Shown here piece after piece: positions 22,572-37,955 of a stretch of DNA of 64,000 bases; the stretch's first letter is position 1; each line of letters opens with the position of its first letter. Below the pieces are notes generated by a model. That model did no database searches. It saw only the letters and a program-made list of their open reading frames with translations, and was not told the DNA's origin. The position numbers and the translations under genes are program-made. The DNA comes from Nitrospira sp. BO4 (GTDB lineage: Bacteria > Nitrospirota > Nitrospiria > Nitrospirales > Nitrospiraceae). The stretch is taken from the NCBI GenBank assembly GCA_030144965.1, contig JAMPUU010000010.1:124001-188000 (forward strand). The letters are read 5' to 3'.

Positions 22572-22580
22572 ATTGACGTA
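22572..22580. repeat. Left attachment-site core (9 bp)
   Basis: ATTGACGTA here (minus strand TACGTCAAT) is identical to 37962-37970 in the 3' end of ihfA. Read on the minus strand it continues TCATAG, so joining it to the ihfA body gives Tyr-Val-Asn-Ser-stop, the same C-terminus ihfA has today. It lies within an inverted repeat (CTGCTATGAA / TTCATAGCAG, 22563-22600) that could be recombinase-binding arms. Confidence 0.6.
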
Positions 22581-22684
22581 GACGTTGACTTCATAGCAGT
22601 TCCCTTCGGTTAGACGGTCTGTCCACAGGTTCAACGAATGGATTCACATTTACAATCAACCCGCTCATGCGGAAGGAAAATACC

Positions 22685-23056
22685 ATGATGATGACACAGT
22701 TGGCCAGCACAAAAACTATACTGGTGATGGCAGTGGCGGCGTTGTTATGGGTCTGCACCGTTGTCGCTTCAGCGGACGATGGACCGTTTTACTTCGACGA
22801 ATCAGGGAAGATGCAACAGCATGGGTACTGGTCGCCCAACTCTCGAAGCAAGTCGGACTTTGAGACTGACCGGCGTATGTACAACGAATGGACCAACGCC
22901 GAGACGCTTCGTAAGAACAGGGAACTGATCGATGAATACTACAGCCCAAAGCCTTCCGCTCCTCCTTCAAGCTCGTCAGACTACTGGATTTCTGGGCCAG
23001 ATGGTCAGAGCCAATGGTGTCGGCCAATCGCTCCGCGACAGGTAATCTGTCAGTAG
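22685..23056 (+). CDS. Small secreted protein of unknown function
   Basis: A 123-residue protein with a clear signal peptide (ILVMAVAALLWVCTVVASA, cleavage before DDG). The mature part is hydrophilic with many Tyr, Ser and Trp (FYFDESGKMQQHGYWSPNS, SSSSDYWISGPDGQSQWC) and two Cys near the end. The ATG at 22685 has GGAAGGA 8 bp upstream and is better than ATG-22667. I do not recognise the family. If the left boundary is right, this is the first gene inside the element and the only one that looks exported. Confidence 0.6.
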   Translation: MMMTQLASTKTILVMAVAALLWVCTVVASADDGPFYFDESGKMQQHGYWSPNSRSKSDFETDRRMYNEWTNAETLRKNRELIDEYYSPKPSAPPSSSSDYWISGPDGQSQWCRPIAPRQVICQ

Positions 23057-23685
23057 GATCTATCCTCTGGAAATTGCTAAAAAATGTGTCAGGGTAGCCA
23101 CATATCGTGGCGGGTCAGTTTCCCCCGGTGCCGGTGGCCGACTCCCATGGTGCGCCGGACCATTGGAACGAGGCAGGCGGGGTGGGTACAACCGCCCAAA
23201 CGCCAATCACCAGCCAGCTCGAATACTCTATCCTATTGATATTGCTATGATGTCAATGAATAGGTGAGACGTTGAGCCTCCGCCAGGAGGCGTCGAGCCT
23301 TCAGGCCAGACGCTCCGAGCACTCTGGACGAGTCTCCGAGGAGTCTTGTGCGAGTGCCGAGCACTGCAGCCAGAGCCGATCTAGTCAGCATATCGGCTTA
23401 TCGGGGTGAGGGTTGAAAGCTGGCCGGTGACACCTGCTTGCTACGATCTCCCGCGTAAGTCGTTGAATCACAGGCGTGTCCGAGGGATTATAAATCCCTC
23501 TGAGTGATTGTGCGCGGCTTGGCTGCTACGGTTCTTTCTTCTACGGTAATGGTCGCAGATTACTTCGACTCGCGCCTCACCAGTATCCACATCCAATTCG
23601 ATCCGAGCACCAAGCGACCACATGAACGCCGCCAAGTGCGCGTGTGCTCGTGTTTATCATTTACCTCAAAGGAGTCTGTGCGGGT
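23057..23685. other. 629-bp region without a convincing gene
   Basis: Three things are visible. At 23090-23190 there is a GC-rich stretch with repeated GTGGC/GGTGGCC words that resembles the terminal-repeat region of an IS (perhaps IS21-like); this is a weak impression. At 23273-23284 lies TGAGCCTCCGCC, repeated exactly at 24325-24336, followed by a GCCTCC/GGAGGC hairpin. At 23482-23500 there is a perfect dyad. No ORF here has coding character. Confidence 0.4.
23482..23500. promoter_or_regulatory. Perfect 19-bp dyad GAGGGATT-ATA-AATCCCTC
   Basis: An 8-bp perfect inverted repeat with a 3-bp centre, ~185 bp upstream of the next gene. It could be an operator or a small hairpin. There is no T-run after it, so a terminator is unlikely. 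Confidence 0.4.
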
Positions 23686-24324
23686 ATGGAGCCAATGCTG
23701 CATTCAAAACTATCAAGGCCGCGACTACGGCCTGCCGGTGGTTTCGCCATCTGCGAAGGTGGTCCCGGTTTCAAGCTGGTCAAGCGCCGGACCATGCAGA
23801 AGTGGCGCAAGGCCGTTAAGAGAGTACTGCTTAGTAAAAGGATCAGGAAGAAAGATCCAGCGGTTGAAAAGATGATTATGGATTGTGCTGCCGAGTGGGA
23901 AACCTATGCGTGTCCTGAATATCAAGCTTGGCCGTCGCTCACGCCACTAGAGAAACAGCAAGCACTTTTTGCATGGATCTTACGGCAGAAGGGACGGAAG
24001 GCTCTTGATATTCTCGTGGCTGGCATCGCAGGTCATTTACACTTCGTCTTCACACCGCAAAAACGGAGAGACTCATATGCACGAGCAGTCACTGTAGGCC
24101 GATCAATCTGGTTTCTCTTGCGTCAGGAATATCGAACCTATGAACGAGACTCAGGACACGGCAGCATCACCCTTCAACACGTCTGCATCACCAAGAAAGT
24201 CCGGTTGCGCTCACGGAACGCTGCCCAACGTATCGAAGCTGCCATCAGAAAGCAGGCGGGGTGGTTCATGGAGGAGTACCACGGACGGTTGGTAGAGGAG
24301 TTGCGGAAAGCACAGTTGATTTGA
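23686..24324 (+). CDS. Unknown protein with a His-x-His motif, flanked by 12-bp direct repeats
   Basis: A 212-residue basic protein. The frame opens with GTG at 23644, but the ATG at 23686 has AAAGGAG 11 bp upstream. A helical N-terminal half (KLVKRRTMQKWRKAVKRVLL) leads to LVAGIAGHLHFVFTPQKRR, then GRSIWFLLRQEY and a Lys/Arg-rich C-terminus ending EEYHGRLVEELRKAQLI. The GHLHFVF segment recalls the His-hydrophobic-His motif of IS200-like/REP-associated tyrosine transposases. The rest does not match that family well, so I leave it unassigned. The 12-bp repeat TGAGCCTCCGCC lies 400 bp upstream and immediately after the stop, suggesting a mobile unit. Confidence 0.5.
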   Translation: MEPMLHSKLSRPRLRPAGGFAICEGGPGFKLVKRRTMQKWRKAVKRVLLSKRIRKKDPAVEKMIMDCAAEWETYACPEYQAWPSLTPLEKQQALFAWILRQKGRKALDILVAGIAGHLHFVFTPQKRRDSYARAVTVGRSIWFLLRQEYRTYERDSGHGSITLQHVCITKKVRLRSRNAAQRIEAAIRKQAGWFMEEYHGRLVEELRKAQLI

Positions 24325-24814
24325 TGAGCCTCCGCCGAGGGAGTATGAGTGCATCCTCAATAATACTGCGGTGTTCGAGATTACTTAGTACCTGTTACAA
24401 GACGATTAGGACACCATAATCACTGCTCTGGTAGCTACGATTCACATTCATACGGTCTGTGGATACGTTTCTAAGGCATACGTAGCGGTACAACTAATAG
24501 TGGAGCCAAATATGAGAGGCACAACTATCTACGTAGTTTCCACATACGGATCGTATTGATTTACATAAGGAATAATTACCCCTCCGTTAATAGAGGGAAA
24601 ACGTGACGAGATTATGACTTCCCTTATAGCCCAGATAAACGTCATGTGCTCTTCGGTCTCCATTCCATTACGGCCTGCTTTATGACCCGATAAACGCCTG
24701 CTGGGTCTCTACCTGGCAGGCTTGAATGTCCAATTCTGCATAACAATCGTGCCCTCACCCTTTCCCCGTTTCATGGCCGAAGTGCCTGAGCGGAGCAGTC
24801 AAAATAGGTGCCCA
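24325..24814. other. 490-bp AT-richer non-coding region
   Basis: No ORF with coding character. It contains related words CATACGTAGC, CTACGTAG and CACATACGGATCG, a CCCTC/GAGGG hairpin (24580-24597), and two GATAAACG motifs ~57 bp apart. It precedes the long plus-strand run that starts at 24815 and probably contains its promoter; no clear -35/-10 pair was identified. Confidence 0.35.
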
Positions 24815-25078
24815 ATGTCCAACAAGAAACTGTACAGCGTCCGTACCGGCACATCCAGGCGAGTAACCATGAGCCTGTCTGAATCCACCGTGGAGGGACT
24901 GACAGAACTCCAAGAGCTATTCCAAAGCCGGTGGCCGAAGGAAGCATATCCCAGCCTGTCTTGCATCTTGAACAGTGTACTGGCCGAACGGCTGGCTGCT
25001 TACGAGGAAGATCCAGAATTATTGGTGGAGGACTTAAGAGATTTTCGAGTTCGATACCATCGTAAGGAGAAGGTGTAA
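24815..25078 (+). CDS. Small protein, ribbon-helix-helix-like, unknown function
   Basis: An 87-residue protein (MSNKKLYSVRTG...). Residues 15-50 (RRVTMSLSESTVEGLTELQE then an Ala/Leu-rich helix ILNSVLAERLAAY) have the strand-helix-helix spacing of CopG-like DNA-binding proteins. The match is weak. It ends 2 bp before the gp14-like gene, so the two are co-transcribed. An earlier ATG (24722 or 24773) is possible but gives a Cys/Pro-rich N-terminus without a ribosome site. Confidence 0.5.
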   Translation: MSNKKLYSVRTGTSRRVTMSLSESTVEGLTELQELFQSRWPKEAYPSLSCILNSVLAERLAAYEEDPELLVEDLRDFRVRYHRKEKV

Positions 25079-25080
25079 CC

Positions 25081-25812
25081 ATGAACTTACTAGATCAACT
25101 CATCAACGGCAGCAGTTCTCCACTACAGAAGTTCAATCTCACCTGCGAGCCAGTAACAATGGCAATGGGCGGAATGTCACTCGCGTCTGCTGGAATGAAC
25201 ATCTACGGTCAATTTCAAGCGAGAGACACGCACAACCAGACCGAGGAATACCGCAGGCTGGAGCAAGAGAACGTCATCGAAGAGAATCGTCGGCGAGCAA
25301 CCCACGATTACCTCACGAACACACGGCTAGAGCAACAGCAGGAGGATCAAGAGAAGGCTGCACTCGCTCAGAAGGTTGTCGATCTTCAGATGCAGGCGGA
25401 CAGGTCGATTGCAACCGGCATCGCGTCTGCTGCTGAACGTGGTGTGGCGGGTCGGACAGTCGATCAGATTGTTTCCGACTTTGACTTCATGGCCAACGAG
25501 GAAAGCGGACGACTGAAAGAGAATCAGAAGCTCGCCAGCCTGCAACACGGCGAAAACATCCGAAGCCTCGGCACTGAGTACTCGAACCGAATCGCCGCCG
25601 TGAAACCATACGTGAAACAGCCAGCGAAGCCCATCGACTTCTTTGGTCCGATCTTCCAGGCAGGCGCACAGACATTGAGCACCGATGTTGCCGTCAGCCG
25701 AGCAAACCCAACCGCGAATACCTTCACGAACTGGGCTAGCAAGCCATCAACACCAACAGCAGGAACGCAGCGATACAACCCGCTGTCTGGCTTCCCAAGC
25801 GTAGGTGTGTAA
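25081..25812 (+). CDS. T7 gp14-like internal virion (ejection core) protein
   Basis: Podovirus internal virion proteins of the gp14 type are ejected into the host to form part of the DNA translocation channel. This 243-residue protein has the family hallmarks: a CEPVT motif (residues 22-26) followed by a small-residue hydrophobic segment (MAMGGMSLASAGMNIYGQFQ). A long Gln/Glu/Arg/Ala coiled stretch follows, then AAERGVAGRTVDQIVSDFD and KENQKLASLQHGENI. A GGAGAAGG site precedes the ATG. The 20 residues before CEPVT are an extra N-terminus relative to many homologues. No other virion gene is recognisable nearby, which is odd for a prophage. Confidence 0.72.
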   Translation: MNLLDQLINGSSSPLQKFNLTCEPVTMAMGGMSLASAGMNIYGQFQARDTHNQTEEYRRLEQENVIEENRRRATHDYLTNTRLEQQQEDQEKAALAQKVVDLQMQADRSIATGIASAAERGVAGRTVDQIVSDFDFMANEESGRLKENQKLASLQHGENIRSLGTEYSNRIAAVKPYVKQPAKPIDFFGPIFQAGAQTLSTDVAVSRANPTANTFTNWASKPSTPTAGTQRYNPLSGFPSVGV

Positions 25813-26026
25813 GCCTTCCACCAGCTCACCAGTGTCTCGTCTTGAGACTCGACCTAAGAGCCGTTCCTACGGAGAGGCTCCAGGGAACATGACCCCACCA
25901 TCGAACTCTCTGTAGAGTGCCAAAATCGACCCTCAATAAGATCAATCGTTTCAATGGTTTATAAAATGCTTCCGGCCTGGTGAGCCTGGGTCGGAGGTTT
26001 CCCTTGGAGGAGAGAAAGAGTGCACC

Positions 26027-26341
26027 ATGACCAGTACATTTCCAGAACGTCTGAAGCCCTTGGCTGAGAAGTTCTATCAGCAAGCCTTATCCCATCCTGC
26101 CTATTTGCTCATGTCTCCCAGTGAGGTCAGGCAGTCCGTTGAGAACCGGCTGTTCTCTTTCGTGAAGAAGTCACCCTGGTGGTTCGGTCAACTGGCGAGT
26201 GACCGGCCCAAGCGAGCCATGACTGAAGCTCAACTTCAAGCATTGAAGAAAGCGAGACTGGCGAAAGCCGCTCTAACCGAAGAGGAACTGCTTCGTGAAC
26301 GGAGAATCAACGAAAGAATCGAAGCGTCTTCAGCAGCGTGA
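26027..26341 (+). CDS. Small phage-like protein, unknown function
   Basis: A 104-residue Lys/Arg/Ala-rich protein, mostly helical (LQALKKARLAKAALTEEELL). A TTGGAGGAGAG purine run lies ~12 bp upstream of the ATG. A Trp-rich segment (VKKSPWWFGQLASDRPKR) sits mid-protein. I do not recognise a family. It is followed by an overlapping gene in another frame, an arrangement common in phage early or middle regions. Confidence 0.5.
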   Translation: MTSTFPERLKPLAEKFYQQALSHPAYLLMSPSEVRQSVENRLFSFVKKSPWWFGQLASDRPKRAMTEAQLQALKKARLAKAALTEEELLRERRINERIEASSAA

Positions 26342-26555
26342 CGCCGTGAAGGCGTGGTTCGCCAAACGTCCAAACTATGCACGTGAGTACCGAGAACGAC
26401 AGAAGCAACTCAGAGCAGAACTCGGGTGCTCACTCAATGGAACTCTGTCAGTTAAGACAGTTCACAAACACAAACAAGAGAACAGGAGGAAACATGAACC
26501 ACAATCCCTTTCAAGTTCCAATCACGAAACCTTCGAACCCACCGACACCTGGTAA
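26295..26555 (+). CDS. Small basic protein overlapping its neighbours, unknown function
   Basis: An 86-residue ORF from a GTG at 26295, overlapping the previous gene by 47 bp and the next by 62 bp. The N-terminal part contains QRDAVKAWFAKRPNYAREYR, resembling the RPxYxxEYxxR words in short phage and plasmid proteins. The C-terminal half is Asn/His/Ser-rich and less gene-like. Without homology this remains tentative. Confidence 0.38.
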   Translation: MNGESTKESKRLQQRDAVKAWFAKRPNYAREYRERQKQLRAELGCSLNGTLSVKTVHKHKQENRRKHEPQSLSSSNHETFEPTDTW

Positions 26556-26727
26556 CACTCTCCCCTGTCCAGTTTGTGGGAAGGATCAGTTCATTCCCTC
26601 TCAGTGGAGAGTTTGCCTTTCGTGCGACGAATCACTGGGCGTTCCTCTGCACGATGCTTCGCCACAAACGATGAGGCAATGGACCGGAGTTGGCGTGTGG
26701 CCGAGTGCCGTCGCCGGTCGTGCCTGA
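26494..26727 (+). CDS. Small zinc-ribbon protein
   Basis: A 77-residue protein with CPVCGK and CLSCDE, giving a four-Cys zinc ribbon (spacing ~17). AGGAGG lies 4-5 bp before the ATG at 26494, which decides this start over an upstream ATG at 26377. N-terminal Pro-rich tail (VPITKPSNPPTPGN). Possible nucleic-acid binding; specific role unknown. Confidence 0.6.
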   Translation: MNHNPFQVPITKPSNPPTPGNTLPCPVCGKDQFIPSQWRVCLSCDESLGVPLHDASPQTMRQWTGVGVWPSAVAGRA

Positions 26728-26780
26728 AGAGAAGAGAAGAGGAATGATGAAACGGAAAACTACCAGACCAAGGAGACACC

Positions 26781-27038
26781 ATGTCCGCACGATTTCAACT
26801 CGGCGCAACGACGCCAAAACACAATCGACCTCTGACTGCATCCGAGTTAGAACGGTTGCGCACTGAAGAGAAGCAGTTTCACCGACTCCAATACCGGCCA
26901 GGCTCAACCTGTGCCTATTGTCGGTGTGGTTTCCTACTGCGTGATGTGACCAAGCGAGACGTTCAGATCCGACATGACATGCATGTTCACGAAGTCATGG
27001 AAGTATTCGAGGAACGGTGGTCGTCGTATGGCAACTAG
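26781..27038 (+). CDS. Small putative zinc-finger protein
   Basis: An 85-residue protein with CAYCRCGF and, ~20 residues on, IRHDMHVHEVME, so a Cys/His zinc site is possible. GGAGACACC precedes the ATG. It overlaps the next gene by 11 bp, and its N-terminal half is a basic helix (SELERLRTEEKQFHRLQYRP). Family not recognised. Confidence 0.55.
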   Translation: MSARFQLGATTPKHNRPLTASELERLRTEEKQFHRLQYRPGSTCAYCRCGFLLRDVTKRDVQIRHDMHVHEVMEVFEERWSSYGN

Positions 27039-27528
27039 AAAACAGGAGCCGTCCAAAGTCGTCTTGACGACGACCAGGCGACGGCACAAAACAGTTCCCA
27101 CCTATCCAGGCCCTTCACAGGCTGAAGTCGAGGCGCTGAGTGATGAGAAGGTGTCAGAAGAATTGCTACGACTTAAGATTGAGCCGCACACGCTCTCCCA
27201 TGTGGAGGATGACGAGCTGCTCATTGCGGCCCACGGCGAGAAGGACTACGGCCATAAGTGGACGAAGCACGATCTCAAGGAGCTACGCCAGCAGGTCTAC
27301 GATTGGCACCATCGCTGTCTGAAAGATCAACTGCTCTCTGGCTACATGGCTGAATGGATCACTTCACTGAGTGAAGACGCCTGCTGGATGATCGTTGAGG
27401 AGTTCGAGCAAAAGAAGATCGCACTCAGCGAGAGACGGTACACCAGCCGTGACCAACTGAGGAGACGAGCTGGGTGGGCAGTCTACGCGAGTGAGTGCCA
27501 AAACAATCAACCGAGGGAGATTCAATGA
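27028..27528 (+). CDS. Unknown phage-like protein
   Basis: A 166-residue protein starting MATRKQEPSKVVLTTTRRRH with a basic N-terminus. Acidic and mixed helices follow (LSDEKVSEELLRLKIEP, WTKHDLKELRQQVYDWHHR, DQLLSGYMAEWITSLSEDA) and a basic C-terminus. The ATG lies within the end of the previous gene, a typical coupled start. No domain is recognised. Confidence 0.5.
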   Translation: MATRKQEPSKVVLTTTRRRHKTVPTYPGPSQAEVEALSDEKVSEELLRLKIEPHTLSHVEDDELLIAAHGEKDYGHKWTKHDLKELRQQVYDWHHRCLKDQLLSGYMAEWITSLSEDACWMIVEEFEQKKIALSERRYTSRDQLRRRAGWAVYASECQNNQPREIQ

Positions 27529-27727
27529 ATTGAAATTGAACAAACACAACTTGCCAGTACTACCAACTCCACCAAAGAAACCACAGCGCGGAGGCTGTGA
27601 CTTCAACTTCGAGGGCAACCGCGCCTACGCCTTTCTTGCAGTGCAGGCGTTCCAATCTGAGCTGCGCACCAAAGGCCGTATAGAGCGACGATGCCAGAAG
27701 CATCCTCAGTCGAATGATCTATGGTGA
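27491..27727 (+). CDS. Small unknown protein, overlaps previous gene
   Basis: A 78-residue ORF from GTG at 27491, overlapping the previous gene by 38 bp. Pro/Lys-rich N-terminus (HNLPVLPTPPKKPQRGG), then a short helix with AYAFLAVQAFQSEL and a basic tail. Plausible because of the compact gene order, but it has no clear ribosome site. Confidence 0.35.
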   Translation: MSAKTINRGRFNELKLNKHNLPVLPTPPKKPQRGGCDFNFEGNRAYAFLAVQAFQSELRTKGRIERRCQKHPQSNDLW

Positions 27728-27799
27728 GCGCTCGATACGAGGCTCTAGCGAGCTTGGTGAGCAGCAATAACCTTTTACTTAGGCAACAGGAGACGCACA

Positions 27800-28486
27800 A
27801 TGACGTATCTTCAGAAATTTATCAGTGACGCAATGAACAATGGCTATTCCTACGAAGACGCTGTGAGCGATCCACGCGCCAAAGAAGCCGCACGGCGCGA
27901 TGATGCCGCCGCTCGCAACGCACATCTCCATGCAAGTAAGGCTCAGTACCTCGCAGCTTTCCAGGCCGCGCGTCAGCAGCAGGGCAGTAACCACAAGGGA
28001 TTCATTGACCAAGAGGAGATGCTCCTGGCAATGCAGGATGAGGCGTACGACAAGAATCCTGAGTATCGTGCTGCCGTAGAGGCAATCCTTGCACAGACCC
28101 CCGGTGAAGTACTGGGCGTGAGTGCGACGGCGACGGCAGCGGATGGGACCGTGGTTCGACTCGGTCAGCCCTATTCGACGGAACGCGCAACACCAGAGAG
28201 CATGATGGAGAATGCCTACCGGGAAATGGTGATGGAGCAACTCGCAAACATCGATCACAGCACGGCCAGGGGTCGGTATGAGTATTTGCAGTTCCTCACC
28301 GATCCAAAGAACGCGTTCCTTATCGAGCACACGGAAGGCTTGGTCACTTCTCAGGACCAGCGAACACACCAAGCGATGTTGGATTCTCAGGCCGCTGGGC
28401 AGAATGATCGGATTGAGATTGTGAGTGAAGCAAATGATGGATCAGTTCCACAAGGTTCATTTGGACAAGGGGAGGGAAATCAATAA
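27800..28486 (+). CDS. Unknown acidic helical protein of the element
   Basis: A 228-residue protein, MTYLQKFISDAMNNGYSYED, with Ala/Gln-rich helices (AAFQAARQQQGSN, LLAMQDEAYDKNPEYRAAVE). A middle Thr/Ala segment (GVSATATAADGTVVRLGQPY) and a Gly/Gln-rich tail follow. The composition would fit a structural or scaffold-like phage protein, but I recognise no family. AACAGGAGACG precedes the ATG. Its stop overlaps the next ATG as TAATG. Confidence 0.5.
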   Translation: MTYLQKFISDAMNNGYSYEDAVSDPRAKEAARRDDAAARNAHLHASKAQYLAAFQAARQQQGSNHKGFIDQEEMLLAMQDEAYDKNPEYRAAVEAILAQTPGEVLGVSATATAADGTVVRLGQPYSTERATPESMMENAYREMVMEQLANIDHSTARGRYEYLQFLTDPKNAFLIEHTEGLVTSQDQRTHQAMLDSQAAGQNDRIEIVSEANDGSVPQGSFGQGEGNQ

Positions 28487-28845
28487 TGGCACCACGTAGA
28501 TTCCAGAAGGTGGAGGTCGATGAGCATGAGCCTCACCAAGAGGCAATGCCAGAAGCACCCACCACCGAGGTAAATAATACCGATACGCCCAAGGCGATGA
28601 AGTTCGGTGAGCGTTCAGAGATCGTGAATGTCCCGTACCACGACAGCCCAAGGCATTTCCCATCGGTGAATGTCACGGTCAACCCTGCGGAGCTGCAGCG
28701 AGGAATCGCCAAGCAGAAGCAGGACGTGGCAAAGATGGTTGCTCAGCATGAGGATTACAAACGCGTTCCCAAGGGAGAACGCACACTGACGCACAAAGTT
28801 GATGAAGATCTGGATATCACCACCACGACACGACTGGAGCACTGA
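28486..28845 (+). CDS. Unknown small hydrophilic protein
   Basis: A 119-residue protein with an acidic Pro/Glu/Thr-rich N-terminal third (VEVDEHEPHQEAMPEAP), then NVTVNPAELQRGIAKQKQDV and a C-terminal Thr/Asp-rich end (DEDLDITTTTRLEH). The start overlaps the previous stop (TAATG), so they are coupled. Not recognised. Confidence 0.48.
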   Translation: MAPRRFQKVEVDEHEPHQEAMPEAPTTEVNNTDTPKAMKFGERSEIVNVPYHDSPRHFPSVNVTVNPAELQRGIAKQKQDVAKMVAQHEDYKRVPKGERTLTHKVDEDLDITTTTRLEH

Positions 28846-28847
28846 CC

Positions 28848-29024
28848 ATGTTTGAACAAGATGTGACATTCGCCAATGCACACGAGAAGATGACAGCACT
28901 CGGCCAAGCCTTTGGGATTGACACTCGTACTGTGGATGAGATCCAAAGGCAGGAGTTACAAGAGGCACGTGCAGCCGCGTATCTAGCTGCAGGCCGTCCG
29001 TTCAATCCAGTGAACATCGGATAG
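28848..29024 (+). CDS. Very small Ala-rich protein, last of the coupled run
   Basis: A 58-residue ORF starting 2 bp after the previous stop: MFEQDVTFANAHEKMTALG, then VDEIQRQELQEARAAAYLA and GRPFNPVNIG. It is helical with a short Pro/Asn tail. The tight spacing supports it as a real gene although it is short. Function unknown. It is followed by a CCTGCC/GGCAGG hairpin at 29051-29068 without a T-run. Confidence 0.5.
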   Translation: MFEQDVTFANAHEKMTALGQAFGIDTRTVDEIQRQELQEARAAAYLAAGRPFNPVNIG

Positions 29025-29385
29025 GTGCGTTCAGTCTCTTTGCTCTCTCCCCTGCCGACCTTGGCAGGTCTCCTCACCCGCCCAAATCGTATTTCAAGGC
29101 AGCCCGAAGGAGTGGTTTGCGAACTGCTCCGGTTGGATAACTACATTTGAAATCTGAACGAGTGGCTGAAGGTATCCTTCCAGGTGCGGAAGGACTTGGA
29201 GGAGAGGTTTGCTTTGAGGGTGACGGTAAGGAAGGGAATCAACGTAGCCACGGATAACCCCTTCCCGAGCGTCATGCCTCAAAGCAATCCTCACCCTTGA
29301 GTATAGAGTACACCGTGACCACGTCAATGAAACTAACAACTTCGTTCAAACGAACGACAGAATGTGAAGCAATAGGAGTGTCGTT
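29025..29385. other. 361-bp intergenic region
   Basis: A hairpin (CCTGCC-GACCTT-GGCAGG, 29051-29068) near its start may end the preceding transcript. An 81-codon minus-strand frame (29094-29339) is open, but has no ribosome site or recognisable motif. An AGGAG site near 29375 belongs to the next gene. Confidence 0.35.
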
Positions 29386-29601
29386 GTGAATCCATCAGTA
29401 TCAGATTTCGAAGGCAAGCCGTTGAGCATGGGTGACTCAGTGGTGTTTATCAGTGCGCCCAACACTCTTCAAAAGGGAATCGTCACCGGGTTCAAGCAGC
29501 TCAGCAAGATCCTGACTGTCGTTGAGATTGTGGTGACACTCGACAACGGCACCAGTCACAGCCTGACGGCGGCTCCATTCGTGTGTGCCAGGCTTTCTTA
29601 A
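29386..29601 (+). CDS. Small beta-rich protein, unknown function
   Basis: A 71-residue protein from GTG with AGGAG 8 bp upstream. The sequence (GKPLSMGDSVVFISAPNTLQ, KGIVTGFKQL, VVEIVVTLDNGTSHSL) looks like a small SH3/KOW-type barrel of the kind found in short phage proteins. This is a fold impression only. Not recognised. Confidence 0.5.
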   Translation: MNPSVSDFEGKPLSMGDSVVFISAPNTLQKGIVTGFKQLSKILTVVEIVVTLDNGTSHSLTAAPFVCARLS

Positions 29602-29635
29602 GCCATGCCAAGGTGCTAGCAAGCTGACACTGGTC

Positions 29636-29649
29636 ATCCACTAGTGGAT
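29636..29649. promoter_or_regulatory. 14-bp perfect palindrome ATCCACTAGTGGAT
   Basis: Perfect palindrome in the gap between two small genes, ~130 bp upstream of the 45-codon gene that precedes the polymerase-like gene. A repressor or integrase-like binding site is possible; no function is shown. Confidence 0.4.
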
Positions 29650-29781
29650 ACCTTGCGGCATATCTAAGTTGCGGTACAGGCTCACCTAATAATTAATGGC
29701 ACCCACTTGTGCATGAGCTGCTCCATTCAAGATTTATGGTGGTATTCTCCGTTGCATCATTCAACTAAGGAGGACCACACC

Positions 29782-29919
29782 ATGGACCAAGCAGCGTTTG
29801 TGAAGCTGATGAACGAGTGCCGAGCGGAGCAAGGACTACCGCTGATGACGAAGCAAGAAGAGAAGGACGACTACGCGGAGTTCATAAGGGAAGAAGAACA
29901 AGCCAGCAGACATAGGTAG
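29782..29919 (+). CDS. 45-residue charged protein
   Basis: Starts at ATG-29782 with AAGGAGG 9 bp upstream, a strong ribosome site that supports translation. Sequence MDQAAFVKLMNECRAEQG, then MTKQEEKDDYAEFIREEEQA: acidic and helical. It lies 103 bp before the polymerase-like gene. Function unknown. Confidence 0.5.
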   Translation: MDQAAFVKLMNECRAEQGLPLMTKQEEKDDYAEFIREEEQASRHR

Positions 29920-30022
29920 ACAACAATGCCAGGGCGGATGGGTCAGCTAGAAATACTGACCAGTGGCCTCCACCACCTTTGAACATCCTCACCCTGGCAC
30001 CCTTTTCAAAGAGGATTGGAAT

Positions 30023-31570
30023 ATGACACTCACACCAGCAGAAAAACTAAGAGCATGGAATAACTTCCATAAGATGAAATCGGACGCAGTACGTGACGGT
30101 GACTTTGCGAAGAAGAACTTCGCAGAGAAACGCATTGCTGAACTGAAGCCGTTCTACTCACAGTTCTGTGACGCCAATAAGTCAACACCTGCACCCGCAG
30201 TAACCCAGAAGGCAACAACGGCAGAACACACTAGCCACACGGTAGCCGAAGAAGACCACACAGCCTTCCACTTCTACGCAGTCTCAGGCAGTCAACGCGC
30301 AGCAGTTCTTGTTGACCGAGTCTTCCAACTCTGGAAGTCGAAGTCATTCAAGCGGGTGCCAGCCGAGACCAAGCTGAGGGATCACTACCAGATTATTGAG
30401 ACCATCGTATCCAACCTTCTCTACTGCGAAGCAATGGATCATGAAGGCGTGAGGTTCAGTCGATCAGAAGAAACCTTCGCTGCGACCTCTCGGTATCGTC
30501 CGGCAGTGTTCAATAAGAGATTTCTCACCATCATGGACGATCTGCACGATCTCGGAATCGTTCATCAGGTAAAGGGTGATCGATGGAAAGCGAGTCAGGT
30601 AAGGAAACACTTCCCTGACCAAAAGACAGTGAAGGTGTATGGCATGAAACAGTCCTACATCACCACAGGGAAAGCACTCACAAGCTTAATGGAGGTATTA
30701 AGCATGACACCAGCAATGTCTGACGTGAACTTCATCAATGAAGGTCGAGAAGTCATCATCCTGAAAAAGGGCGAAGGATCTGCACTCTTGGAATATGCGG
30801 ACGCAGAGTTCCCCGAAGCTGATAAGTACCGCAAGCAGATGGTCATCATCAATGAGATGCTCAACAATGCAGGTGACATACTGACTGGTGAAGCACAGGC
30901 TATCCACGATCAACGTAAGAGACACCTTGTCAGACGGTTCACACATTCCAGCCTGGAATCTGGTGGAAGGTTATGGGAGGGATTTTGGCTGAACGGTATG
31001 AAGCGAGAAGAACGGCCTACGATGCTTAGGCTCAAGGGCGAATCTACAGTGGAACTGGACTTCTCGAATATGATCGTCCGACTTTGCTACCTCGTGGCAG
31101 AGAAACCTGCACCGGCTGGCGATCAGTACATCATCCCTGGCTTAGATCCAGCGAGTCGGGATGGAGTCAAGCGGGTGATATCCACCTTACTGTTCGATAA
31201 CAACCGCAAGCGGGATCGATTCCCGAAGGAGGTTGCACAACTGTTCACACCAGCCGACCGGCAAAAGGGATGGGCCTATGTGTATAAGGCTATCCGAACG
31301 CACCACTACGAACTAAGGGCATACCTCGACTGTGGCTTAGGCCATTACCTCCAGTTCTTGGAAAGTCAGATTCTCATCAACTGTCTTATCCGGTGTGCTC
31401 AGAAGGGTCTGGTAGCCTTGCCGATACATGATTGTCTTGTGGTACCTCGATCCCTGGCTTTCAGGATCAAAGGGATAATGGGACAGACGGTCAGATATAT
31501 GTTTGGAATGGATGCCTGGTTGCCGGTTGAAGAGAAGTGTAAGGGTCAGAAGGATGAGGTAGCAGCATAG
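30023..31570 (+). CDS. Stand-alone family-A DNA-polymerase-like protein (putative element replicase)
   Basis: A 515-residue protein; the ATG at 30023 has AGAGGA ~8 bp upstream and is preferred over GTG-29963. The C-terminal half has family-A-like polymerase motifs: motif A ELDFSNMIVRLCYLV (about residue 343), motif B-like RDGVKRVISTLLFDNN (about 378), and motif C IHDCLVV (about 467), with likely catalytic Asp in A and C. No 3'-5' or 5' nuclease domain is visible. The N-terminal half (residues 1-290) is helical and may bind DNA or primers. Similar unannotated proteins occur on plasmids and islands, as far as I recall. I infer a replication role for this element; it is the largest element-specific protein. 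Confidence 0.6.
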   Translation: MTLTPAEKLRAWNNFHKMKSDAVRDGDFAKKNFAEKRIAELKPFYSQFCDANKSTPAPAVTQKATTAEHTSHTVAEEDHTAFHFYAVSGSQRAAVLVDRVFQLWKSKSFKRVPAETKLRDHYQIIETIVSNLLYCEAMDHEGVRFSRSEETFAATSRYRPAVFNKRFLTIMDDLHDLGIVHQVKGDRWKASQVRKHFPDQKTVKVYGMKQSYITTGKALTSLMEVLSMTPAMSDVNFINEGREVIILKKGEGSALLEYADAEFPEADKYRKQMVIINEMLNNAGDILTGEAQAIHDQRKRHLVRRFTHSSLESGGRLWEGFWLNGMKREERPTMLRLKGESTVELDFSNMIVRLCYLVAEKPAPAGDQYIIPGLDPASRDGVKRVISTLLFDNNRKRDRFPKEVAQLFTPADRQKGWAYVYKAIRTHHYELRAYLDCGLGHYLQFLESQILINCLIRCAQKGLVALPIHDCLVVPRSLAFRIKGIMGQTVRYMFGMDAWLPVEEKCKGQKDEVAA

Positions 31571-31599
31571 GTACCGCGCCTAAGACCTGGCTCCCTATG

Positions 31600-31880
31600 T
31601 AGCACTGTTAAGGAATAAAGAAAAACAATGACTTAGTAAAACTGACCTCAGAATCCTTAACGGTGCCGCAGAGCTACATGACCAATCCTTAATGGTGCTA
31701 GCGAGATACAGGAGATGGTCATAGGAAGAGAGATTCCTTGTGAAGTGAAGACGCAGGGAAAGAGGAAATGGAGGACCGAGACAAGCAGGAGGAACCTGAA
31801 TAACCCCAGTTCCCCATGTAAGCCACCTAAGGAAATTCCAAGTCATTGTAATTATTCAGTTCGCCCATTTCCTTAGGTGG
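31600..31880. repeat. Iteron-like repeats and 14-bp inverted repeat; candidate origin/control region
   Basis: AATCCTTAACGGTGC (31652-31666) and AATCCTTAATGGTGC (31684-31698) are near-identical direct repeats. A third, inverted copy (TAGCACTGTTAAGGAAT) lies at 31599-31615. Further on, CCACCTAAGGAAAT (31823-31836) and ATTTCCTTAGGTGG (31867-31880) form a perfect 14-bp inverted repeat with a 30-bp centre. All contain a CCTTA core. The region lies between the polymerase-like gene and a small basic protein gene, and contains no convincing ORF; this fits a replication origin or an operator array. Confidence 0.5.
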
Positions 31881-31955
31881 GTTGGAGTCTGCCGGAAGCT
31901 AGAAACCGCCAAACCGTTACACCGTTTCAGTAACAATGAAACCAGGAGACTCACG

Positions 31956-32246
31956 ATGACATCCGTAGAACGTGTCCGTGCTCACCGTGCCAGGAAGAAA
32001 GCCGCAGGCGTTACATCCATTTCAGTAACAAGTGAAACGCTCAGAACCGCAGTCGAGGAGTTCAACAAGTTGAATACTGACCTGAAGGCCAAGCTGGCCG
32101 ATCTGGAGTCTTCTGGCCAAGCTACCGCCCTTGGTCAGCAGGTGTTATCCGATTCCGATCTGAAGTACCTTGTGGAGTCAGTCTGGTTTCAAAGCGAGAT
32201 GTACCGAGAGAAGTTCCGATCCTACCGCAGGTCTTTGAAGTCCTAA
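31956..32246 (+). CDS. Small basic protein, possible DNA-binding
   Basis: A 96-residue protein with a strongly basic N-terminus (TSVERVRAHRARKKAAGVTS), a short strand-like segment (VTSISVTSETLRTAVEEF), then a coiled helix. The arrangement recalls plasmid/phage ribbon-helix-helix proteins, in which a basic strand precedes two helices. CAGGAG is ~10 bp upstream of the ATG. It lies immediately after the repeat array, so it might bind those repeats (inference). Confidence 0.5.
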   Translation: MTSVERVRAHRARKKAAGVTSISVTSETLRTAVEEFNKLNTDLKAKLADLESSGQATALGQQVLSDSDLKYLVESVWFQSEMYREKFRSYRRSLKS

Positions 32247-32369
32247 ATCCAGTTGGGATAAAGGGGCCGGTTTCTCTTTACCGGCCTTGGCCTTTCTCTA
32301 TCACGTATTCCTTTGGTATCCTACCTGCCTGCACCAGCCTATGGCGAACAGCAACAGGGTGCCACAAAG

Positions 32370-33041
32370 ATGTCTTCTCCCACTTCGAAAGTAAGGGAAC
32401 TGATTCAAGCAGTATTCATACAGTCCTTTATTTCGCACCCTGAACTTCGAGCAGTATGGCTTACCGCTTCAGTCCAAATTGGTGGCCTATTACGATCTTC
32501 CTCCTTAGACATATCTGTTCACCGAGCAGGAGAGTTGGATCTGGTCCTAAGATGTATGGAGGATGAATTACTATCTGACACTCGTGACACGAAAGCTCCC
32601 GATCCAGCCTACAGTTACCAACTGATGATATCGGAGCTTTGGGTGGGTCATGTTTATGAAATCTTCAGACTGCTCAAGATTCGTGACCTTGTGTCTCAGA
32701 GCGATGAGTTTCAGAGCCTCGCACATCTGTTGGAATTATTGCGCATGACTATCGACAAGCATGAGATTGCGAAGGACAAGAAGCTAGAAGCCCCAGTCCA
32801 AATGAAAAGGTGCCCACCACGAAATGACGATAGCGATTTCTATGAGTACTCGAAACGTGACCTCCAGCGTGGGCACATTATGCCCACCCGGACTTCTCAT
32901 CGCGGTTCTGTGATGTGGCAGGTATTAGATATCGTGTCAGATGAAACATTCTGGATTGAGCGGAGACAACTGTCTGAGAGAATCATCGCACTCTTCAAGA
33001 GCACAACCGCCAGCGGGAGACATCACAAGCCGGGGCCATGA
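32370..33041 (+). CDS. Unknown helical protein of the element
   Basis: A 223-residue protein, MSSPTSKVRELIQAVFIQS. The frame opens at a TTG 57 bp earlier, but ATG-32370 with a weak AGGGTG site is more likely. Mostly helical (LMISELWVGHVYEIFRLLKI, LAHLLELLRMTIDKHEI) with a Cys/Pro/Arg and Asp-rich linker (KRCPPRNDDSDFYEY). No motif recognised. It lies between the basic protein and the methyltransferase. Confidence 0.5.
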   Translation: MSSPTSKVRELIQAVFIQSFISHPELRAVWLTASVQIGGLLRSSSLDISVHRAGELDLVLRCMEDELLSDTRDTKAPDPAYSYQLMISELWVGHVYEIFRLLKIRDLVSQSDEFQSLAHLLELLRMTIDKHEIAKDKKLEAPVQMKRCPPRNDDSDFYEYSKRDLQRGHIMPTRTSHRGSVMWQVLDIVSDETFWIERRQLSERIIALFKSTTASGRHHKPGP

Positions 33042-33126
33042 TTATTTCCATTACCTAAGACACATAACAGCTTCCCTATGTGGCAAAGATGGAGGATAAT
33101 ATGATAACCTAAAACAGGTTTTCAAA

Positions 33127-34008
33127 ATGAAACGCAAAGAAGTGACAAAACCTAACAAGCACACCTCTAAATGGCTTACTCCGTTGCTAAAGGACGGAAC
33201 GCCCTCTCCCGATTTCACTACTGAGCTTGGTACGCTTTTCTTTGGCGATTGTCTCAAGCTTCTTCCTACCTTAAAGCCATCCGTCATAGATACTATCTTT
33301 GCCGATCCTCCCTTCAACATTGGCAAACGGTACGGGAAGAACACAGACGATCTTCGACCTGAAAATGAGTATCTGTCCTGGTGTAGGCAATGGCTTTCTG
33401 AATGTGTTCGTGTTTTAAAACCAGGTGGGGCCTTGTTCCTTTACAACCTTCCAAAATGGAATATTTCCCTCGGCGCATTTCTCTCTGAACAAGGGTTGAG
33501 TTTTCGCCATTGGATTGCCATTGAAATCAGCGCGTGTCTTCCAATCCCTGGCAGACTTCATCCAAGTCATTACAGTCTTCTCTATTTCACTAAGGGGAAA
33601 GCCAACACGTTTCGGAAGATTCGAACACCGGTGGCATTATGTCGGCACTGTGGTGGCGAAGTGAAGGACTATGGCGGACACCGAGGCGCTTTAAATCCAA
33701 AAGGAATAAATCTTAAGGACGTATGGACAGACATCCCGCCGGTTCGTCACCGCAAATTCAAATCCAGCACTCGAACGGCAAATGCGCTTTCAACTAAGAT
33801 TCTCGACCGAGTAATCGAAATATCAACTGATCGTGGAGAGGTCGTCCTTGATCCGTTTGGTGGTAGCGGCACAACCTTTGTAGTTTGCGAGGCAAGAGGC
33901 CGAAGATGGATTGGGATGGAGATTGACCATGGTCATGAGATTGTTGATCGGATAACAAACGGCGAGATCAAAGCCCATAGCAACACTGATTATATTGACG
34001 ACGACTAA
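33127..34008 (+). CDS. DNA methyltransferase (beta-class N4-C/N6-A type) of an R-M system
   Basis: A 293-residue SAM-dependent DNA methyltransferase. Motif IV DPPFN (residues 60-64) comes before motif I DPFGGSGTT (about residue 245), the order of the beta class that methylates exocyclic amino groups. Between them are a target-recognition region and a Cys/His segment (ALCRHCGGEVKDYGGHRG) that might bind zinc. The DPPF variant is common in N4-cytosine and some N6-adenine enzymes. It converges on the restriction gene, overlapping its end by 4 bp. Confidence 0.87.
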   Translation: MKRKEVTKPNKHTSKWLTPLLKDGTPSPDFTTELGTLFFGDCLKLLPTLKPSVIDTIFADPPFNIGKRYGKNTDDLRPENEYLSWCRQWLSECVRVLKPGGALFLYNLPKWNISLGAFLSEQGLSFRHWIAIEISACLPIPGRLHPSHYSLLYFTKGKANTFRKIRTPVALCRHCGGEVKDYGGHRGALNPKGINLKDVWTDIPPVRHRKFKSSTRTANALSTKILDRVIEISTDRGEVVLDPFGGSGTTFVVCEARGRRWIGMEIDHGHEIVDRITNGEIKAHSNTDYIDDD

Positions 34009-34616
34009 CCTTTCGCTCGGCCATCAGTCCCCTTAGGAATTCTTGGCACATCGGTACTCGTAGCATCTTGCTCAATCACAACAATCTCAAAAATGCCTAA
34101 TTCGCATGGCAAACACCGCCAGAAGTCAAGATAGGGTTCAAGCTCCGCATAGTTTCCAATTCTGTCTGTCAGGTAGCGGTAAAGCTCCCGTGAGGGAACA
34201 ATCAACAGGGCGGCGGCGAGATAGCCTTTGATCAAGCCCAATGCCATTTTATTCAGCGCACGGTGGCTCGAAGAAACATTGCCAGTTTCCCATTCAACCG
34301 CCACGATGCTTCCTGATGCCGTCTTGTAAACAATATCTATCTCGCCTGGCTTCTTGCGCACAGCGATTGGCAATGCATACTCATCTATCCAATCTTGCGC
34401 CTTCAGTTCCGCGATGAAGCCATTTTTTATTGGTTCTACTCCGTTGCCCATTCCACGCTTTTTCCCCGATTCTGGGTATATGGTGAATTGGCCGCTTCCG
34501 GGAGGCCATTCCACATTTCTGACGGCAGTGAGCACAGCACTCCTTAACTTTGCCCATTCTTCCGACGTAGAGAATGATCCCCTTGATATGAGAGTTTCGA
34601 TGTGGGCAATCTTCAT
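34005..34616 (-). CDS. BglII/BamHI-like type II restriction endonuclease
   Basis: A 203-residue protein. The N-terminus (MKIAHIETLISRGSFS... with a following WxxxR helix) and the catalytic stretch PGEIDIVY ... VAVEWETGNVSSSHRALNKM fit the BglII/BamHI PD-(D/E)xK group. Likely catalytic residues are Asp 94, Glu 108 and Glu 110. GMGNGVEPIKNGFIAEL precedes the core. Length matches BglII/BamHI (about 210-220). Its target is unknown; if it is BglII-like, a GATC-centred site is possible but unproven. It overlaps the upstream HTH gene as ATGA, so it is coupled to a controller. Confidence 0.72.
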   Translation of the reverse strand: MKIAHIETLISRGSFSTSEEWAKLRSAVLTAVRNVEWPPGSGQFTIYPESGKKRGMGNGVEPIKNGFIAELKAQDWIDEYALPIAVRKKPGEIDIVYKTASGSIVAVEWETGNVSSSHRALNKMALGLIKGYLAAALLIVPSRELYRYLTDRIGNYAELEPYLDFWRCLPCELGIFEIVVIEQDATSTDVPRIPKGTDGRAKG

Positions 34617-34858
34617 TGACTAGATCTTTTTGAGATCTGACGGAGAAGCATTTGAGGATCTTTACCAATGGCCTTCGCAACTTCTAAGAACTCAATTACA
34701 TCTAACCTTCGTTCTCCACGCTCATATTTTGAGACGAATGATTGTGGGCGTGAGAGCCTGGAAGAAAGCTCTGTTTGCGACAGACCAGCACTCTTCCTGG
34801 CCTCAATCAGGATATTGCGAAAGCTTTCGTAAGCCTTTGTGAAAGCTGATTTTGGCAT
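34613..34858 (-). CDS. XRE-type HTH regulator, probable restriction controller (C) protein
   Basis: An 81-residue HTH_3 protein (NILIEARKSAGLSQTELSSR, PQSFVSKYERGERRLDVIE), the size and shape of C proteins that time restriction after methylation. It precedes the endonuclease with a 4-bp overlap. The ATG at 34858 gives a typical length; GTG-34885 is also possible. The dyad-repeat region upstream (34887-34919) could be its operator. Confidence 0.75.
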   Translation of the reverse strand: MPKSAFTKAYESFRNILIEARKSAGLSQTELSSRLSRPQSFVSKYERGERRLDVIEFLEVAKAIGKDPQMLLRQISKRSSQ

Positions 34859-34886
34859 ATCGCCAGCAAGTGACCGAGCGCACACT

Positions 34887-34919
34887 AAACCTTTTTTGGA
34901 ATAAACCCAAAATCGGTTT
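34887..34919 (-). promoter_or_regulatory. Putative controller-protein operator
   Basis: Just upstream of the HTH gene are AAACC (34887-34891), AAACC (34903-34907) and GGTTT (34915-34919). The last two form a 5-bp inverted repeat with a 7-bp centre, and the two AAACC copies are 16 bp apart. Tandem dyads of this layout are typical C-boxes, but the sequence does not match the classical GACT/AGTC type. Confidence 0.4.
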
Positions 34920-35051
34920 GCTGCTGCCGCGAAACCCGAGATGGGGCAAGAGAAAGGTGGTTCACGGAACTTCTCTTAGATTGCTCCTTGCGATTTGGAC
35001 GGTTCGTTTCCTACAATGCGACTGCCTACATGAATTAGGCTCACATCACGC

Positions 35052-35972
35052 ATGGACATCTTGCTAAGAGCCTGGACCGAAGACAACCTATTGTCCCTGA
35101 TTCGTGATGCAGTGGAAGAACGCCTTGACTTGGAATACAAGAGATGTGGAGCCCTTCAACGTGACGATAAGAAGATACAGGAACTCAGCAAGGACGTGTC
35201 TGCGCTTGCCAACTCTACAGGTGGCACCATTGTGTATGGAATGGTCGAGGATGGTCATCTTCCAAAAACCATCGATGAAGGTTTCGATCCGGCAGATATT
35301 AGTAAGGAATGGTTGGCGCAGGTGATCCTTGGCAATATCAGCCCACCACTTCAAGGCGTGACGATTCATCCGGTTCATCTTAGATCTCATTCACGTGGAA
35401 GATATGCGTATGTGGTTTCTGTTCCGCAGAGTACTACAGCTCACCAGGCGAAGGATAAGAGGTACTATAGGCGATATAACACCATTAACGTACCAATGGG
35501 AGATCATGAGATTCGCGATATCATGAACCGCCAGAAGCACCCGGCCTTGGTTCCTCGGTTCAACGTTACGCGGATGACGGATCGCTACAAGTTGACCGTA
35601 AGCCTCGTGAACAAAGGGCAGGTAAGAGCCCAGCACGTGAAGTTGGTATTCTCACTGCCAAAAACTTGTACAACAAGGTCTATTGGGTTCTTAGGTAAAG
35701 TCGTTCACCGGGAAGATGGGTCGTTTGGGAATGATTGGAATGAGTACGTCTTCAAGGGAAATAGTCAGGTCGTTTTTCCAGATGACGAGTTTCCTTTGGA
35801 GGATGTTGGTCACTTCTTATTTGTAAGCTTAGATTCGAGCACGTCCAAGGGAAGTAAATGGGAGTCAGTTGTCCTACACTGGAAAGTGTATGCCGATGAC
35901 ATGCCAGCTACTACTGGTCATCTACTCTTGAAAGACCTTTTCAATCCGGAAGAGTTTGGAGGTCAGAGGTAG
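35052..35972 (+). CDS. Schlafen/AlbA_2-domain protein
   Basis: A 306-residue protein. Residues ~15-145 match the AlbA_2/Schlafen-like ATP-binding domain: EERLDLEYKRCG, DVSALANSTGGTIVYGMVED, then RYYRRYNTINVPMGDHEI. C-terminal residues 170-306 form a beta-rich domain (KLTVSLVNKGQVRAQHVKLV) that I do not recognise. Such proteins are often found in defence or regulatory gene sets; here it lies beside a restriction-modification module, divergent from the controller. Its specific function is unknown. Confidence 0.75.
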   Translation: MDILLRAWTEDNLLSLIRDAVEERLDLEYKRCGALQRDDKKIQELSKDVSALANSTGGTIVYGMVEDGHLPKTIDEGFDPADISKEWLAQVILGNISPPLQGVTIHPVHLRSHSRGRYAYVVSVPQSTTAHQAKDKRYYRRYNTINVPMGDHEIRDIMNRQKHPALVPRFNVTRMTDRYKLTVSLVNKGQVRAQHVKLVFSLPKTCTTRSIGFLGKVVHREDGSFGNDWNEYVFKGNSQVVFPDDEFPLEDVGHFLFVSLDSSTSKGSKWESVVLHWKVYADDMPATTGHLLLKDLFNPEEFGGQR

Positions 35973-36230
35973 TTCCGGTCACGACCACTAGCCGCTTCCG
36001 TACTTCCGGGTATCTCAGCTTCTCCAATCCCTCTTGCAACAGTTTCATCGGCACTCTGTCCCTCTGATCGTACACTTTCCCATGAATCCCTTGTGATGCC
36101 TATCCGTCCAACAACCCCATTGACAGACCCTGCAAGTAAGCATACCCTCACAAACCTACAATCCAACCACAACCTGCCGTCGGGTCGAGGAAGGCCCACC
36201 GCCGACACCTTGTGCGAAAGGCGGTGTCTC

Positions 36231-36422
36231 ATGGCGACCTCTCCTATTCCTTGCTCCGATTTGCGCAAAGAACTGAAGGATTACATTCGTTCCTGCGAAC
36301 GGCTCCTGTACTCTGCAATGCCTTCTGCCAATGCGCCGTTATCAGCGGATGAACGGGAGATGTTGGAGTACTATCAGCAGGAGTTGAGATCGCAGCTCCT
36401 GACGCCAGAGAAGATACACTGA
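36231..36422 (+). CDS. Small protein, first of a tandem paralogous pair
   Basis: A 63-residue protein from ATG-36231 with AAAGGCGG 7 bp upstream; the longer frame to 36093 is not needed. Core: DLRKELKDYIRSCERLLYSA, ADEREMLEYYQQELRSQLL. It shares its pattern (xYRxxIxDYIxSxRRLL, then xDExExLxxxxxxL) with the gene 44 bp downstream. Function unknown; two helices. Confidence 0.55.
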   Translation: MATSPIPCSDLRKELKDYIRSCERLLYSAMPSANAPLSADEREMLEYYQQELRSQLLTPEKIH

Positions 36423-36465
36423 CCTGTTCCCCTGGTTCGGTCAATGTCTAAGGAAGGAACCTGCT

Positions 36466-36630
36466 ATGTCAGATTACCGGCAGAGCATCCGAGACTACAT
36501 TCTTGCCAGCAGAAGACTGTTGGAACTCGGCGAACTCACGGATGATGAATTGGAAGTCCTTCAGGACATGGACGCGCGCCTGGCAGTTCTGTTCGGCGAT
36601 AAGCGGGACCATCCCGCCACCATCACGTGA
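36466..36630 (+). CDS. Small protein, second of a tandem paralogous pair
   Basis: A 54-residue ORF with AAGGAAGGA 8 bp before its ATG. Sequence MSDYRQSIRDYILASRRLLE, ELTDDELEVLQDMDARLAVL. It resembles the preceding gene, suggesting tandem duplication. It ends 13 bp before the integrase stop (convergent). Unknown; perhaps a small regulator. Confidence 0.5.
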   Translation: MSDYRQSIRDYILASRRLLELGELTDDELEVLQDMDARLAVLFGDKRDHPATIT

Positions 36631-36643
36631 CCGCTTCGTTCCT

Positions 36644-37864: not shown

Positions 37865-37955
37865 GCCTAAGGATCTGATAGCTTGTAAAATGGCTCTGGT
37901 GGCGGTTTCGCCTGAATTGGCACTTGACTGATCGAGAGCGGATGTTACACTGTCA

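Follow-up and report, generated by a model that had tools for sequence, protein, structure and literature searches.

Boundaries and gene content of the element

The window, which is the whole stretch of 64,000 nucleotides of Nitrospira sp. BO4 analysed here, contains a mobile element of 15,390 bp (15.4 kb) at positions 22572-37961. These limits were fixed by comparison with G116, a genome of the same species in which the two flanks of the window join with a 9-bp overlap, ATTGACGTA. G116 has no gp14 gene, and its empty site holds one copy of the 9-bp core. The left end of the element is marked by the core as attL (22572-22580), and the left flank is 100% identical to G116 up to this point. The second copy, attR (37962-37970), lies within the 3' end of an HU-type gene on the minus strand (37956-38231), the last codons of which (FKKYVNS*) are restored by element sequence. 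A tyrosine integrase gene (36644-37864, minus strand; PF00589, 2e-11) adjoins attR. On these comparisons, the segment is an integrated, site-specific, and strain-variable mobile element.

We compared its genes with those of related elements on contigs C20, C26, and C27 of the same genome and in a further Nitrospira genome, G003. The window-type core order is a secreted-looking protein, the 23644 protein, a putative DNA-binding protein, gp14, small ORFs, a scaffold mimic, its overlapping partner, and further small ORFs, all on the plus strand. The first protein (22667-23056), which is small and has a signal-like N-terminus, is conserved in four elements (blastp, 51-73% to the C20, C26, and G003 copies) and has no Pfam match. 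The conserved core protein of 226 aa at 23644-24324 shows 46-68% identity to the same three copies, with a dN/dS of about 0.2; its start is possibly internal, and no family match was found. Directly upstream of gp14 lies a small putative DNA-binding protein (24815-25078). Its homology is clear among the four window-type copies, and homology to the ORF in the same position of the distant G056 element could not be demonstrated. The gp14 gene is followed by a conserved small ORF (26027-26341, 55% to the G003 copy), by the small ORFs 26295-26555, 26377-26727, and 26781-27038, conserved in C20, G003, and C27, and by a conserved core protein (26974-27528) with 35-82% identity to the other elements. 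The ORFs 26377-26727 and 26781-27038 contain Cys residues and are Zn-ribbon-like. Downstream of the scaffold mimic (27800-28486), a small protein conserved in C20, C27, and G003 (28486-28845) has a start overlapping the scaffold-mimic stop. It is followed by a conserved 58-aa ORF (28848-29024) and the small conserved ORFs 29386-29601 and 29707-29919.

A putative replication protein of 535 aa is encoded at 29963-31570 (plus strand; PHROG 4756, 5e-22; 33% to the G056 element protein). The PHROG 4756 proteins (window 29963-31570 and L013 13183-14520) show family-A-polymerase-like palm motifs by eye, and their relatives belong to large Vibrio, Aeromonas, and Rheinheimera phages. The next genes encode a BamHI-type restriction-modification (R-M) system, with a methylase of 293 aa (33127-34008, plus strand; PF01555, 1e-40), a BamHI-like endonuclease (34005-34616, minus strand; PF02923, 2e-52), and an HTH regulator (34613-34885, minus strand; PF01381, 4e-10). 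PADLOC identified 33127-34885 as type II R-M. Here, a BamHI-family restriction endonuclease and the accompanying methylase and HTH control protein are carried as cargo by a Nitrospira element. A Schlafen AlbA_2 domain protein of 306 aa (35052-35972, plus strand; PF04326, 2e-14) is further cargo. The longest ORFs of the element are those for the replication protein (535 aa), the integrase (406 aa), the Schlafen AlbA_2 protein, and the methylase.

The preliminary description saw no recognisable capsid or terminase genes in the element and no resemblance of the other ORFs to gp15/gp16, portal, or capsid genes. Profile searches and an ORF survey of the element bore this out: no portal, capsid, terminase, or tail gene was recognised, nor were gp15 and gp16, which adjoin gp14 in phage genomes. 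One of these ORFs, 27800-28486, nevertheless has similarity to a virion-assembly gene, as it contains the C-terminal segment of a T7-type scaffold gp9. A complete capsid set, sought by re-annotation, was not recognised in the element, nor was a terminase small subunit or a packaging site. Scans for sigma-70 promoters and terminators stayed at chance level, and no convincing family of helper-type late promoters emerged from a search for repeats.

The gp14-type gene

The ORF 25081-25812 (plus strand, 243 aa), preceded by a Shine-Dalgarno-like AAGGAG, had been assigned to the gp14-type internal virion family. The Pfam profile search bore this out: PF24072 (T7_gp14) was matched with E = 5e-18 and 66 bits (curated cut-off, 27) over profile positions 2-171 of 187. 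For reference, the same model gives 160 bits for T7 gp14 and 161 bits for the gp14 of a Pseudomonas phage. PHROGs 805 and 4295, both "internal virion protein", were also matched. All six readable gp14 homologues exceed the PF24072 cut-off, the five from related elements with 68-76 bits. The features from which the family had been recognised, namely the (M)CEP start, the small-residue N-terminal helix, and the ERGVAGRTVDQI segment, all line up with phage gp14s, and the N-terminal, central, and C-terminal hydropathy peaks coincide with the T7 gp14 pattern. By profile and alignment, 25081-25812 encodes a true T7 gp14-family protein. The family was reached by profile searches only. A tblastn search at E 0.01 against 50,697 phage records and against plasmids gave no match, and IMG/VR pattern scans with gp14, the 23644 core protein, and the replication gene gave no relative.

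Structure prediction, proposed along with the profile check, was less informative. The AlphaFold model of the gp14 protein consists of two long helices at low confidence (mean pLDDT 57), and a PDB fold search with it returned nothing informative. The model of the scaffold mimic is of similarly low confidence (mean pLDDT 56), and structure was left out of the evidence for both proteins.

The gp14 gene is maintained under strong purifying selection. Between the window and C20 copies, dN is 0.19 and dS about 2 (near saturation), resulting in a dN/dS of 0.095; dS was saturated in most other gp14 pairs. No other core protein of the elements is as well conserved as gp14. In the C26 copy, the gene carries a one-base frameshift (L011 19253-19320) close to the end of the contig; this may reflect misassembly or a genuine break. 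An N-terminal extension of 20-25 residues of the LLDQLINGSSSPL type precedes the MCEP start in the window (25081-25145) and in G003 (L012 10611-10685), and is missing from the gp14 of C20 and G306.

The scaffold mimic

The product of 27800-28486 matched PHROG 1052 ("head assembly") with E = 4e-7 over profile positions 213-289 of 293; the E-values in four elements were 4e-7, 1.2e-6, 1.4e-7, and 2e-7. Its PF05396 score of 24.2 bits is just below the cut-off of 27.1, and the match covers profile positions 149-185 of 188 only. Full-length similarity to gp9 was not found. Its residues 63-97 correspond to the C-terminus of T7-type scaffold gp9, about the last 37 residues of which sit inside an otherwise unrelated protein. 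Judged by its sequence, 27800-28486 is not itself a gp9 but contains a gp9-like segment. The C-terminal gp9 motif GF..q.EM..AM.D.rY..dp.YR..V was found in it both by alignment and by a motif HMM; it reads GFIDQEEMLLAMQDEAYDKNPEYRAAVEAIL in the window protein and GFASQREMIAAMSDKRYQDDPAYRATVEARV in a phage scaffold example.

A tblastn search of 27800-28486 against the 50,697 phage records yielded individually weak matches. Among the 20 matches listed, every functionally annotated one was a capsid-assembly or scaffold gene of T7-like phages, and in all four phage records that we opened the match lay at the end of the scaffold gene. For the C27 copy, nine of 12 matches belonged to T7-like phages, and all of these that had an annotation lay on the scaffold gene. 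The same kind of phage search with two other core proteins gave no coherent target.

The motif HMM was built solely from five phage scaffold C-termini and searched against 1315 six-frame segments. The four orthologues ranked 1-4 (1.7e-10, 2.7e-9, 0.019, and 0.03), the window protein scoring 1.7e-10. Elsewhere in the window, the best control scored 0.046, close to the C20 and G003 scores (E 0.02-0.03). The assignment of these two copies therefore rests on orthology and not on the motif score alone. The HMM did not find the motif in G056, the most distant element. In the sister genus, the counterparts (L063 13561-14268 and L065 422-1168) carry two motif copies per chain (4.8e-12 and 6.6e-11) and pass the PF05396 cut-off with 35.4 and 30.9 bits. 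The counterpart is located one small ORF downstream of gp14. The scaffold mimic is the strongest functional clue in the element.

Related elements and the search for a helper

Two more copies reside in the genome of the window: the second is on contig C20, and the third extends over C26 and the short contig C27. G116 has neither the C20 nor the C26 insertion. The C20 copy is bordered on each side by the core CTGGTGTCCCCAACGGG, the two occurrences lying about 15.2 kb from each other, and the C26 copy begins at the 3' end of a tRNA-Ser gene. Beyond this genome, related elements were found in two other Nitrospira genomes and two genomes of the sister genus. The gene order of the window element, sought in other bacterial genomes, recurs in G003 of the same genus, where the gp14 homologue lies on a Nitrospira sp. 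ACE_NIT12 contig. G056 carries a distant but complete copy of 12.7 kb bounded by tRNA-Leu repeats. Of the two sister-genus genomes, G294 and G306, the former is a single-contig chromosome in which the element, beside tRNA-Leu, is flanked by a 940-bp repeat whose copies lie about 15 kb apart. The delimited elements measure 12.7-15.4 kb, as opposed to 40-45 kb for the T7-like phages that were read.

The replication genes vary among the elements. The PHROG 4756 protein occurs in the window and G056, while C20, G003, and G294 have another, helicase-like replication family, with a weak helicase match in C20 only. The cargo also varies and is mostly defensive, with BamHI-type R-M in the window and TIR proteins in C20 and G056. 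An 836-bp stretch of the window (29101-29936), which includes the ORFs 29386-29601 and 29707-29919, is identical to L053 on C27, the elements being otherwise 80-87% similar. The window copy and the third copy also share several shorter identical stretches, which suggests recent recombination between these co-resident copies. Beside the C20 copy, about 40 kb (C20:18001-58000; L037 and L038) have no match at the corresponding G116 site and are possibly a larger variable island.

A T7-type portal over the cut-off was found neither in the element-carrying genomes nor in 78 of the 79 genomes of the genus. A T7-type portal in G020 was rejected as a sign of a helper: it lies on two short contigs of a 67%-complete bin, one of which also has an S4-like ribosomal protein and further cellular genes, and it is probably foreign. 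No helper prophage was recognised by eye beside the C20 copy, and no helper phage of Nitrospira was found.

Discussion

The element is probably a satellite, of the phage-inducible-island type, of a T7-like podovirus (an autographivirus-like helper) infecting Nitrospira. It is integrated and mobile, has an integrase and att sites, and has no complete set of virion genes; at the sequence level, the gp9-like motif supplies a candidate gene acting on helper assembly. The reading is based on the family membership and hydropathy pattern of gp14 and the purifying selection on it, the scaffold motif, the att sites with the empty site, the related elements at different sites, and the defence cargo, together with the element size relative to T7-like phages, the lack of T7-type portals over the cut-off in the element-carrying genomes, and the precedent of SaPI1 CpmB. 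It is weakened by the failure to find a helper or phage relatives, a terminase small subunit or packaging site, or gp15/gp16, by the motif missing from G056 and scoring weakly in C20 and G003, and by the low confidence of the fold models. Of the three explanations offered in the preliminary description, a satellite borrowing a helper capsid is the best supported, on the empty site, the related elements, the selection, the cargo, and the scaffold mimic.

The best reading of the gene content is that these elements are satellites that redirect T7-like capsid assembly and supply their own ejection protein. When a T7-like helper infects the cell, the element would excise and replicate. The scaffold mimic would rival helper gp9 in binding the helper coat protein and drive the formation of smaller heads, fitting about 13-15 kb, and the element DNA would be packaged by the helper terminase. 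The element gp14 would enter the internal core, replacing or joining helper gp14, and let the particle make an opening in the outer membrane of its next host. In T7, gp14 exits the virion first and forms an outer-membrane pore (PMC8954989). Since gp15 and gp16 are absent from the element, its gp14 could work only together with helper proteins.

The same genes could belong to an anti-phage decoy island, spread by its integrase and some other route, in which the scaffold mimic and gp14 only poison T7-like assembly alongside R-M and TIR. A scaffold mimic and defence cargo are indeed present, no helper was seen, and the small-capsid redirection of known satellites inhibits the phage too (PMC10945586). 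Poisoning alone, however, hardly explains a gp14 accompanied by a phage-type replication gene, nor gp14 being the best-conserved core protein, and the delimited elements are alike in size, at 13-15 kb. We regard a decoy island as unlikely. A decayed podoviral prophage, left by a temperate T7-like phage after loss of the head and tail genes, would retain two T7-type genes without the rest. This explanation, also raised in the preliminary description, lost ground and is very unlikely: gp14 has a dN/dS of about 0.1, and the same capsid-less set is conserved in several elements, in two genera and at different sites. In addition, the T7 order is reversed, with gp14 upstream of the scaffold-like gene, the scaffold motif has moved into another protein and is duplicated in the sister genus, and nearly all genomes of the genus (78/79) are without a T7-type portal. 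Reuse of gp14 elsewhere, e.g., for DNA entry or as a membrane pore unconnected with phage particles, would fit the absence of the gp15/gp16 partners and the N-terminal extension of the window and G003 copies. It is likewise very unlikely: all element lineages read, G056 excepted, also carry a T7-type scaffold segment, for which no role other than in capsid assembly is obvious. A complete, unusual minimal virus with capsid genes too divergent for recognition would accommodate the several conserved core ORFs that lack a known function, but it can hardly be entertained, as no window-element ORF without an assigned function exceeds 242 aa, which falls short of a usual portal or large terminase, and the scaffold segment implies a T7-type coat that should be recognisable.

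Taken as a satellite, the element would be of the SaPI type by its mode of action, here read from the genes. SaPI1, a Staphylococcus aureus pathogenicity island, is likewise an integrated satellite without a capsid gene set, and it is similar in size to the element. An element of 13-15 kb fits a smaller head than that of helpers of about 40-45 kb, as in SaPI1. To our knowledge, SaPI1 carries no ejection protein. SaPI1 CpmB, like 27800-28486, is a small protein bearing the C-terminal segment of a scaffold; CpmB and the 80alpha scaffold bind the coat protein through this same segment, and CpmB leads to small capsids (PMC5644958). Unlike in CpmB, the motif is internal in the element, and it is duplicated in the sister genus. 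The SaPI1 helper, 80alpha, is a siphovirus, whereas a T7-like podovirus is proposed here. No genes shared by SaPI1 and the element were seen, and the PICI gene names (alpA, pri-rep, terS, regulators) were absent from the general Pfam/PHROG profile matches. By descent, the two morphogenesis proteins are related to those of T7-like phages (Autographiviridae), which have the gp9 (PF05396 C-terminus) and gp14 (PF24072) families in common with the element; all other recognisable virion genes are missing from it.

The helpers of P4 and PLE are contractile-tailed phages. These satellites remodel the helper capsid to a small size (PMC7552001, PMC10945586), as proposed for the element; unlike the element, they use external scaffolds, Sid and TcaP (PMC10945586), and have no gp14. 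Defence cargo, as carried by the element, is reported for P4-like satellites (PMC9122126). PICMI, cfPICI, tycheposons, and VEIMEs are, like the satellite proposed here, integrative phage-borne elements, some of which depend on virulent phages (PMC11389934). PICMIs reportedly encode no capsid remodelling (PMC10803314), unlike what is proposed for the element. In the literature searched, none of these four groups was found described with T7-type scaffold or ejection proteins.

We know of no phage satellites in this bacterial group and of no satellite that brings its own ejection protein. The literature searched, with partial journal coverage, describes no satellite of T7-like podoviruses and contains no paper linking satellites with T7-like helpers or with satellite-encoded ejection proteins. 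There is a somewhat better than even chance that the elements form a previously undescribed satellite family, combining a T7-type scaffold-tail decoy with its own ejection protein and hence a satellite-encoded DNA-entry pore in its particles. If so, capsid-size redirection by scaffold-tail mimicry arose independently of SaPI1, and parasites would have, in an ejection protein of their own, a new means of controlling particle entry into cells. T7-like podoviruses are among the best-understood phages, and the T7 system would provide ready assembly assays. Nitrospira are key nitrifiers with almost no isolated phages, and the satellite reading, if true, would mean that T7-like phages attack them.
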